DNA of 64,000 nt from Sulfolobus sp. A20 (lineage in GTDB: Archaea; Thermoproteota; Thermoprotei_A; Sulfolobales; Sulfolobaceae): the NCBI RefSeq assembly GCF_001719125.1, contig NZ_CP017006.1, positions 372,001 to 436,000 on the forward strand, in the 5' to 3' direction. Shown here in pieces: positions 44,361 to 49,941 of this stretch; positions within the stretch are counted from its first letter, which is position 1; each line of letters starts with the position of its first letter. The translations under genes and the position numbers were made by a program. Under the pieces are notes generated by a model that saw only the letters and a program-made list of their open reading frames with translations, had not been told where the DNA came from and did not search any database.

Positions 44361-44579
<219 letters not shown>

Positions 44580-44733: not shown

Positions 44734-44988
<255 letters not shown>

Positions 44989-47786: not shown

Positions 47787-47876
47787 TCCCGCCGCGGGGA
47801 CTTGAACCCCGGACCACCCGGTTTCTATCCCCCTATCTACAGCCGGGCGCTCTAAACCGGGCTGAGCTACGGCGGG
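47787..47876 (-). tRNA. tRNA-Tyr(GTA) with intron
   Basis: Acceptor CCCGCCG pairs with CGGCGGG, discriminator A, T arm CGGGGTTCAAGTCCCCG. The anticodon stem CCCGG/CCGGG encloses 21 nt; removing a 14-nt intron at the canonical site leaves loop CTGTAGA, anticodon GTA. No CCA is encoded. Confidence 0.92.
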
Positions 47877-48523
47877 TACACGTATTTTTAATTATCTATA
47901 AGGCATTATAAGTTTTATCCCCAACCGTCTAAATGAAAGCATATAAACTAAGGTATATCATGAGGACTTCAGTGTGTTATTAGGTTAATTTTTCACAAAA
48001 TCTTTAAATGAAGATCTTCTTGATATGCAAATGTAGTAAGTGTATTAGGGATTAGCTTAAGTGCTTTTGAAGCTTCCTATTTGTTTAATTTTTCAAAGTT
48101 GTCAGCAAAACGTTGGAGCTTTTGCATTATACTCATATCTAATAATTCAAAAAGTATGAGAAGGGAATACGTTCCTAAAGATAAATTTCATAAATCAAAG
48201 TAAGGCGGTTCCAGAAGGTTTAGAACCATTAACAGTTCTCCTCCATATTTTTTCCCAAGGATTGATTAGTATTAGGGTAGTTATTATTCTATTTCCTCAC
48301 TACTATAAATCACGAGGCTTTCCCTTTATCATAAATGAGAAGAGAGTGAAATTTATCATAAGAAAATTGTGTAAACTCCTCACTTTAGTTACTAAAAATT
48401 GTATTCATATTAGTACCTGAAAAAAGTATTATAATGGGTAATTTTTATTTAACTTTTTAATTCTTCTCATGATTTTTATAGTTAGAACTGTTTATAAAAA
48501 TAAGCGAAAAATAACGTATTGAA
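47877..48523. other. Gene-poor interval between tRNA-Tyr and the int(N) remnant
   Basis: No convincing complete gene in 647 bp. The only longer open frame is on the plus strand, 48160-48420 (87 codons without a usable start; it contains AVPEGLEPLTVLLHIFSQG and IILFPHYYKSRGFPF). It could be debris of the element that integrated at tRNA-Glu, whose body would have lain on this side. A TATA-like TTTATAAAAA at 48490-48499 precedes the remnant. Confidence 0.45.
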
Positions 48524-48763
48524 ATGCCTAACTTTTACGTCAATTCTAAATTCTTTAAAGAGATTAAGGGTAAGTATTATGTCTATATCATAGAGAAAGA
48601 TCAAGACGGTAAGGAAAGGTAGACTTATCTAGGTCCTTTAGATAAGATCATAGAAACGTATATGGGGGTATTAGGGTGTTTTCCTATAACCTTAAAATGC
48701 CGCGGCCGGGATTTGAACCCGGGTCACGGGCTCGAGAGGCCCGCATACTTTCGGCATGCATAA
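48524..48763 (+). pseudogene. int(N) remnant of an SSV-type integrase at tRNA-Glu
   Basis: Plus-strand frame from ATG 48524: KGKYYVYIIEKDQDGKER, an in-frame TAG (48620-48622), then TYLGPLDKIIETYM, which aligns residue for residue with the int(N) remnant at tRNA-Gln. The frame continues antisense into the tRNA-Glu gene (RGRDLNPG) and stops in its intron. It is therefore the N-terminal half of a split integrase, now also nonsense-mutated. The TATA box 25 bp upstream survives. No int(C) was found. Confidence 0.8.
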
Positions 48764-48794
48764 CCTGCACTTGACCGGGCTATACTACCGCGGC
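48698..48794 (-). tRNA. tRNA-Glu(CTC) with a non-canonical D-arm intron
   Basis: Acceptor GCCGCGG pairs with CCGCGGC; anticodon stem CGGGC/GCCCG with loop CTCTCGA gives anticodon CTC; T arm CCGGGTTCAAATCCCGG. A 22-nt insertion in the D-arm region (about 48749-48770), flanked by AAGT repeats, must be removed for a normal cloverleaf, so the intron is at a non-canonical position and the anticodon loop has none. A TATA-like TTTTAAAAT lies upstream near 48820. Confidence 0.88.
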
Positions 48795-48823: not shown

Positions 48824-49312
48824 TTAAAATTTAATGTTATTTAGTATCTCATCGATTACATCATTCAAGTTTCCTTGAAAGAATTCTGAGAAGATTATTT
48901 CATCATAAATTATATAGTATCCATATGCGTTTTTGAGTAATGAGTATTTATACCCCTTGCAAGTCTCGCAATAACCTCTTATCTCTTTTTTATTACTATT
49001 TTGAATTATACTGAATTTGACTCCATTTTTCTCCATAATTTCCGATACACTCTCTTCTCTCCTAGATAACCTCTTAGCCAAGTGAAAGAGTGCTAATTGT
49101 ATTAGGTCAGTGGTCGTTATACCCTTTTCTCTTAACTTCTTCGGTATTAAGTGTTCTTTATCGGTCTCTCTCAAGACTTCCTTAACTTTTTTGTTTATTT
49201 CTCTAGCGTCAGATAGTATATTTAGGCACTGTTTTGCTAATTCATTTGCTGTTTTATAATCTCCTATCCAAGTCAATATTATAGCCCTATGCAGATTTTC
49301 TACGCAGTTCAT
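48824..49312 (-). CDS. Hypothetical protein
   Basis: About 162 residues from ATG 49312, which follows GGTGA at five bases; a GTG nine bases earlier is the alternative. The N-terminal half is helical (AIILTWIGDYKTANELAKQCLNIL resembles a repeat or HEPN-like helix), followed by a CETCKGY motif near 130. It is coupled to the gene ending at 49318, whose stop it nearly touches. No family recognised. Confidence 0.6.
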   Translation of the reverse strand: MNCVENLHRAIILTWIGDYKTANELAKQCLNILSDAREINKKVKEVLRETDKEHLIPKKLREKGITTTDLIQLALFHLAKRLSRREESVSEIMEKNGVKFSIIQNSNKKEIRGYCETCKGYKYSLLKNAYGYYIIYDEIIFSEFFQGNLNDVIDEILNNIKF

Positions 49313-49317
49313 TTGTG

Positions 49318-49941
49318 TCACCTAGGTCTAATGATTAGGCATATGCTATGATACTCATCGTTAAGTTTCACTACGTAAGAGACTAGTCCGAAGTGGTCGG
49401 GATATCTTACATTTTCTATTATACTTATACTTTCAATTAGTCTCTTAAGTATGTATGATCTTCTATAGCTCATAGTAGCCCTAACATTGACGAAAAGGAG
49501 TCCTCTATCGGCTCTTAAAAACTCTCTTAACTTAGGGTATTTTTCAATGTTTATTACTAAATCTGTTATCGTCTTCGTATATTTTACGTTTCTAAAAGGT
49601 AATATATCTTTTATATTTATGTCAAATTTTTGTATTAGTAAGGTATAAGCGACGCTTTCACCTATAACGCTCGAAATATCTCCGGATAGTAGTTTTCCCC
49701 ATCTACCTAATCGGTATAACTCGATGATTTTCGCTATGTCGGCTGATGAGGTGAGTTTGGAGGTTAAAGCTGTGGTGATGGTAAATAATTTGTCATCCAA
49801 CTCTATTTCCTCTGATGTACCTCCTATTTCGTAAGCCTCTAGAATTTCATTTGCCAGAAACTCTAAATCCTTTTCAGAGTCCGTATCAGTGTGGGGTAAT
49901 AGGTCTTGTTGTATCTCTATCCATGAAATCTTAAGGTTCAC
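49318..49941 (-). CDS. Hypothetical protein
   Basis: A soluble, largely helical protein of 207 residues with an acidic N-terminal third, probably GTG-initiated at 49941. The segments YRLGRWGKLLSGDISSVIGESVAYTLL and ADRGLLFVNVRATMSYRRSYILKRLIESI look like conserved core. No family or catalytic motif was recognised. It forms a two-gene unit with the gene ending at 48824. Confidence 0.6.
   Translation of the reverse strand: MNLKISWIEIQQDLLPHTDTDSEKDLEFLANEILEAYEIGGTSEEIELDDKLFTITTALTSKLTSSADIAKIIELYRLGRWGKLLSGDISSVIGESVAYTLLIQKFDINIKDILPFRNVKYTKTITDLVINIEKYPKLREFLRADRGLLFVNVRATMSYRRSYILKRLIESISIIENVRYPDHFGLVSYVVKLNDEYHSICLIIRPR

Follow-up and report, generated by a model that had tools for sequence, protein, structure and literature searches.

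In Sulfolobus islandicus, N-terminal fragments of integrase genes (intN) are described beside tRNA genes, and Table 5 of PMC3718332, which covers the strains REY15A, HVE10/4 and LAL14/1, lists such fragments alone at tRNA-Ala(GGC) and tRNA-Pro(GGG), together with an intN fragment accompanied by conjugative-plasmid genes at tRNA-Glu(TTC). For LAL14/1, the same source counts 13 remnants of insertions at tRNA genes. As for complete enzymes, the integrase of pXZ1 and a fusellovirus integrase are reported to target two tRNA-Glu genes whose sequences differ by one nucleotide (PMC8371274, citing Peng 2008).

The locus considered here is a stub of this type in Sulfolobus sp. A20, and it is very probably the scar left on the attL side by an element like a spindle-shaped virus or pXZ1, which integrated at tRNA-Glu(CTC) and was later lost except for this end. 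Its features and those of its surroundings, in coordinates of the window (the whole 64,000-nucleotide stretch of DNA analysed), are the following:

44752-44988, minus strand: another int(N), at tRNA-Gln, an open frame of 78 aa (PF07935, E 8e-18)
47919-48523, no strand: strain-specific sequence from the tRNA-Tyr side to the stub, beyond the end of homology with congeners at 47918
48172-48288, plus strand: decayed MFS-transporter gene fragment (tblastn, 49% over 39 residues, 31.6 bits)
48491-48500, plus strand: TATA-like box, about 33 nt upstream of the stub ATG (from sequence)
48524-48697, plus strand: int(N), N-terminal integrase domain of the SSV type, up to the edge of the tRNA gene (PF07935, residues 1-57)
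48620-48622, plus strand: in-frame TAG at codon 33 of int(N), of which intact relatives exist (from sequence)
48698-48763, plus strand: int frame continued through the tRNA 3' half (attL side) to the next stop, reading KCRGRDLNPGHGLERPAYFR
48698-48794, minus strand: intact tRNA-Glu(CTC) with a D-arm insertion, the target (attB) (ARAGORN, Rfam and sequence)

Read on the plus strand from the ATG at 48524, the frame runs for 32 codons to the TAG and then meets no further stop until residue 79, the last 21 or so residues of this 79-residue frame being antisense to the tRNA gene. Given that residues 58-76 match any tRNA-Glu, matches to these read-through residues were discarded as merely antisense tRNA-Glu (when genome contigs were scanned with the read-through peptide, 77 of the 80 loci kept begin at residue 49 or later), and the tests of the stub were redone on residues 1-57. 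In this form, the stub matches PF07935 with E 1.2e-10 and a PHROG integrase family with E 1.6e-8, and its alignment scores are 165 with the SSV4 integrase (maximum of 1000 shuffles, 49) and 199 with the integrase of a Yellowstone SSV, MK054233 (maximum of 1000 shuffles, 55); a search of solved structures with the stub gave no match. The initial annotation had proposed an int(N) remnant with an amber codon at tRNA-Glu, a proposal which hung on alignment with SSV integrase N-termini and which these results bear out. Both peptide blocks that it quoted can be read in this frame, the first of them separated from the TAG by six residues. Besides this stop, the stub is one codon short near residue 12, a codon which is present in all eight other rows of the alignment of relatives (alignment A1).

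The arrangement is that of the SSV type, given that the N-terminal domain PF07935 is recognised with the tRNA-overlapping residues excluded, and that the recombination site lies inside int, the frame being continuous through the tRNA apart from the TAG. In the pNOB8 type, att lies outside int and the gene is whole after integration, whereas the SSV-type N-domain frame found here enters the tRNA. The catalytic tyrosine-recombinase residues of SSV-type integrases belong to int(C), which is absent at this locus. Comparison of sequences thus confirms 48524-48697 (plus strand) as the broken N-terminal domain of an SSV-type ("suicidal", type I) integrase. An AT-rich box lies, by eye, at a similar distance before the start in SSV4 and at four other loci (L060, L065, L066 and L067), and it is plausible that the candidate promoter of the stub is intact.

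The target gene was identified as tRNA-Glu from its anticodon, CTC, which was read from the sequence (complement at 48734-48736), and the ARAGORN calls of tRNA-His or tRNA-Arg for 48698-48794 were rejected on the same ground. Both the miscall and the Rfam score, which is slightly under the cut-off (27.3 vs 29 bits), are put down to the D-arm insertion; for S. islandicus LAL14/1, PMC3718332 (section 4.6) describes D-loop insertions in the two tRNA-Glu genes. The 53-bp 3' half of the gene is identical at all 53 positions in two congeners (G004 and G005) and at 52 in four (G001, G002, G003 and G006), and the two tRNA-Glu genes of Sulfolobus sp. A20 (CTC and TTC) match at 108/113 bp.

Intact relatives of the stub are found both as other stubs and as complete integrases. 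In alignment A1, which includes the tRNA-overlapping residues, identity to the stub is 84% for G012, 83% and 76% for two loci of G020, 74% for G003, 73% for SSV4, 70% for the Yellowstone SSV, 59% for pXZ1 and 49% for G014, and the G012 stub, itself intact, is 82% identical over 55 columns. The four intact stubs at 74-84% (G003, G012 and the two of G020) all end in tRNA-Glu 3' halves, the 84% (G012) and 76% (G020, 694 kb) relatives at tRNA-Glu(CTC) and the 83% relative (G020, 395 kb) at tRNA-Glu(TTC). Complete integrases with the same N-terminus and a tRNA-Glu core, the search for which had been proposed at the outset, are those of SSV4 and pXZ1. The SSV4 integrase (EU030938, ORF330; SSV3 is similar) has the same N-domain, with 66% identity over stub residues 1-46, and its frame runs into a tRNA-Glu 3' half so that the core is within the gene; it differs in being complete and in having a core with the TTC anticodon, whereas the tRNA of the stub has CTC. 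The pXZ1 integrase (NC_010365), also of the SSV type, has an internal core which matches the tRNA-Glu(CTC) of the stub at 49/49 positions, although it is complete and its first residues are more diverged, with 58% identity over 64 aligned residues, those of the tRNA part among them. The frame in which the stub continues through 48698-48763 (plus strand) is that of both the SSV4 and the pXZ1 integrases.

The target is not written in the N-domain. Up to the core, the N-domains of SSV4 (Glu-TTC) and SSV7 (Gly-type core, anticodon read by eye) are almost the same throughout, and so are those of the Yellowstone SSV (Asp core) and of a viral contig in which the frame runs into tRNA-Gln; nearly the same domain is thus found against tRNA-Glu(CTC), tRNA-Glu(TTC), tRNA-Asp and, in this one viral contig, tRNA-Gln, which means that the domain does not set the target. 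Since a near-identical N-domain faces different tRNAs, the relatedness of two stubs says little about shared targets. In a tree of 17 N-domains, 12 of the 14 inner branches are unresolved and one is starred.

The stub at tRNA-Glu and the int(N) at tRNA-Gln were initially presented as two independent events that use different tRNAs and different frames through the T arm, which holds for both remnants, and from this it was argued that the tRNA cluster is a repeated landing zone, which does not follow from the counts. Over the whole genome (2,688,317 bp), PF07935 matches 11 places, each overlapping a tRNA 3' end or at most 3 bases from one, so that 11 of 46 tRNA hits bear an int(N), and the cluster around the stub has two on five tRNAs (Thr, Gln, Ser, Tyr and Glu). 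Given that the hypergeometric probability of two or more is 0.34, the cluster is ordinary in this regard.

Other junctions in the same genome deserve description. A 77-bp piece at G000:C1:812078-812154 (L068:9079-9155, minus strand), 75% identical to window positions 48478-48554, resembles the promoter and first codons of the int(N) family of the stub and lies about 1 kb beyond a different int(N) that abuts tRNA-Glu(TTC); the two are probably the stacked scars of successive integrations. An apparently small captured element of about 4.2 kb lies at tRNA-Arg (G000:C1:596773-601000, L093) and contains an int(N), a 692-aa ORF read by eye as helicase/primase-like, small ORFs and an int(C). Within the window, a ribbon-helix-helix (CopG-type) ORF at 44361-44504 (plus strand) ends inside the 3' end of tRNA-Thr (44486-44578, minus strand), which could be another capture junction. 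Beside tRNA-Glu, the genes at 48824-49321 and 49318-49941 (minus strand) have near-full-length PHROG matches (E 1.8e-69 and 8e-82); the latter gene matches no phage record by tblastn and is present in all six congeners, and both are probably host genes that found their way into PHROGs by another route.

In the stretches fetched from the six congeners G001-G006 (for G004, 3.5 kb on that side), no stub of the same family abuts tRNA-Glu(CTC), and the other int(N) present in them (G003, at tRNA-Val; G004, L062) are less similar and occupy other positions. Homology with these genomes resumes at 48698, the tRNA 3' end, in five of the six, and at 48695, 3 bp earlier, in G004, a junction as expected for integration at tRNA-Glu(CTC). 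Given these stub-free congeners, the integration may postdate their split from Sulfolobus sp. A20, or they may have lost the stub.

On the other side, homology stops at 47918 in G001, G002, G003, G004 and G006, the stretch of G005 having ended earlier. The interval from tRNA-Tyr to tRNA-Glu (window 47876-48700) is rearrangement-prone. A block comprising FKBP, egsA, a beta-CASP nuclease and tRNA-Val (gene names assigned by reading of the sequences) sits between these two tRNAs in G001, G002, G003 and G006, adjoins ahcY in Sulfolobus sp. A20 (G000:C1:438101-442015) and in G005, and lies some 41 kb from the Lsm gene in G004. Displacement of this block by the integration was considered and rejected, given that G005, which has no stub, also has the block beside ahcY.

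A full element had been suggested at 47.9-48.5 kb, where only 605 bp separate 47918 from the stub, and the sole piece recognised in them is the decayed MFS-transporter fragment. Among 32 genomes, this flank has otherwise only short or weak matches, the best of which is to G007, of another genus (70% over 106-108 bp, E 1e-6), and the 31.6 bits of the fragment compare with 21.6 bits for the best of 100 shuffled queries. In G007, the match falls within an MFS-transporter gene that is whole (PF07690 at E 3.3e-15; also PF00083), 1.2 kb from the tRNA-Glu of that genome and beside the same neighbour genes as in Sulfolobus sp. A20; the stretch around this gene has no phage match, and at the tRNA-Glu of G007 there is at most a very weak stub trace (residues 31-57). 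The fragment may belong to the host or have been cargo of the element.

The other end of the element was sought over the whole genome. When up to 3 mismatches are allowed, the 27-base core has five occurrences, all of them inside tRNA genes, without mismatch in tRNA-Glu(CTC), in tRNA-Glu(TTC) at 811 kb and in tRNA-Asp at 813 kb, with 1 mismatch at 2196 kb and with 3 at 657 kb, so that no further att copy was found. No int(C) assignable to the stub was found genome-wide with the SSV4 integrase as query, a search which an int(C) far from SSV4 might escape; the sole int(C) found, at 600.3-601.0 kb, was rejected as a partner, given that it lies 3.3 kb from the separate int(N) at tRNA-Arg. The partner int(C) and second att copy of an SSV-type integration are thus missing at the locus, which is explained as loss, and the stub is accordingly filed as a relic of the SSV type, neither an integrase nor a provirus. 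DNA searches found no fusellovirus structural genes in the inserted segment (among the 20 of 69 phage records listed, matches begin at 48507 or later), and the single plasmid match to the locus is the integrase part. Neither attR nor any element gene was recognised there, and the element may have been either a virus or a plasmid.

The homology of the stub, its junction at the tRNA 3' end, the stub-free sites of the congeners and the missing other end are the observations on which integration and loss are proposed. We infer the reaction, the order of the losses and their cause as follows. The SSV-type integrase of the element would have recombined its internal copy of the tRNA-Glu(CTC) 3' half with the host tRNA gene, which would have split the integrase gene, kept the tRNA intact and left some 58 codons from the start of int directly abutting its 3' end. 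Deletion or rearrangement would later have removed the remainder of the element, int(C) and the other att copy included, and the remaining stub would be decaying, with one nonsense codon and one codon missing. Position alone points to the CTC gene, and not to its near-identical TTC counterpart, as the site of integration, and the stub might instead have originated at another tRNA-Glu locus, e.g., the TTC gene, and been copied when tRNA-Glu genes recombined. The 108/113-bp match of the two genes, the 77-bp piece about 1 kb beyond the TTC gene (812.1 kb) and the equally close relative at a TTC gene (83%, G020 395 kb) speak for such copying, but the piece is short and only 75% identical, and the closest relative (84%, G012) and the 76% one (G020 694 kb) are at CTC genes. 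Copying is thus considered very unlikely, and direct integration is the simpler reading, given that pXZ1 has the CTC core inside the same type of integrase.

A different question is whether selection has maintained the stub as a small protein that binds DNA, e.g., one hindering new integration at the tRNA. This would agree with the 8 of 11 int(N) stubs of Sulfolobus sp. A20 that have no in-frame stop (3 contain one), and with the 10 int(N) loci vs one int(C) returned by the SSV4 integrase query, but the excess is explained without function by retention beside an indispensable tRNA gene, and the copy at tRNA-Glu(CTC) is cut off at residue 32, which makes selection on it scarcely credible. The orthologous stub of G012 and G020 (L065/L067) also fits no constraint, with 10 of 15 changes altering amino acids vs 11.6 expected (P = 0.24) and a dS of 0.14, against 0.07-0.21 for 12 flanking ORF pairs. 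For stubs in general the picture is mixed, and evidence for selection comes from the orthologous stub at tRNA-Pro(GGG) in G006 and G001 (L197, G006:C2:2246595; L199, G001:C1:1475081; the G001 tRNA is called Ser by ARAGORN), which is open in both genomes and has a dN/dS of 0.20, with amino-acid changes below expectation (P = 0.001) and a dS of 0.48, like that of two flanking ORFs (0.41 and 0.36). The more general notion that orphan int(N) are not all scars, and that some are maintained as small DNA-binding proteins which sit on the attachment site in the tRNA and impede later integration, is itself very unlikely; if true, the tRNA-Pro(GGG) stub of the two congeners would be a guard and the TAG copy at tRNA-Glu(CTC) a failed one.

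Constraint on the L197/L199 stub is only a lead, because nine stub pairs were tested, and a later related integration may have replaced the stub. Too few amino-acid changes (P < 0.05) occur in four of the nine pairs (L187/L212, L189/L212, L190/L196 and L197/L199), but not in the other five (L187/L189, L191/L207, two L194 pairs and L017/L020). Flanks were measured for L197/L199, L190/L196, L187/L189 and L191/L207, on flanking ORF pairs with dN/dS under 0.6 that include overlapping antisense ORFs, and of these four only L197/L199 has a dS like its flanks. The stubs of L190/L196 (dS 0.83 vs 0.43 in flanks), L187/L189 (0.34 vs 0.01 or less) and L191/L207 (0.36 vs 2.67) look like separate integrations. 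In L187/L189 (G003:752206 and G001:1307275), the adjoining DNA is nearly identical and the int(N) at the tRNA differs, as given by this dS, and a stub at one tRNA thus seems to have been replaced by newer integrations.

The single TAG had also been taken as a sign of relatively recent decay, which the scar itself does not favour, given that neither an int(C) nor another att copy was found for it and that one codon is missing besides the stop. Moreover, stops are a weak clock, given that only 6.7-6.8% of single changes in two intact relatives create one, so that one stop is expected after about 15 changes in the roughly 171 bases. The L065/L067 stub, for example, is open in both genomes, yet differs at 15/171 bases, in a stretch that is 95.5% identical over 13.95 kb, and no int(C) was found in the 5.6-7.6 kb of adjoining sequence fetched on that side.

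Among the known systems, the plasmids pKEF9 and pARN4 carry the tRNA-Glu(CTC) 3' half at 43/43 bp, but the neighbouring annotated tyrosine recombinase gene does not include this match, and integration there would therefore leave the gene unsplit. The titles and abstract openings found in literature searches do not name the tRNA-Glu(CTC) stub locus, and the word "integrase" is absent from the main text of the Sulfolobus sp. A20 genome paper (PMC5127849). The stub alone matters little, as one more scar in a known Sulfolobales pattern, and its use is comparative: stub counts per tRNA gene provide the background for judging claimed integration hot spots, and with the tRNA-Pro stub pair one can test whether int(N) stubs may be more than debris. 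The S. islandicus intN fragments in Table 5 of PMC3718332 belong to another species, and that table has no intN entry for the CTC gene; the stub of Sulfolobus sp. A20 is a further case, at tRNA-Glu(CTC), of this published kind of scar.
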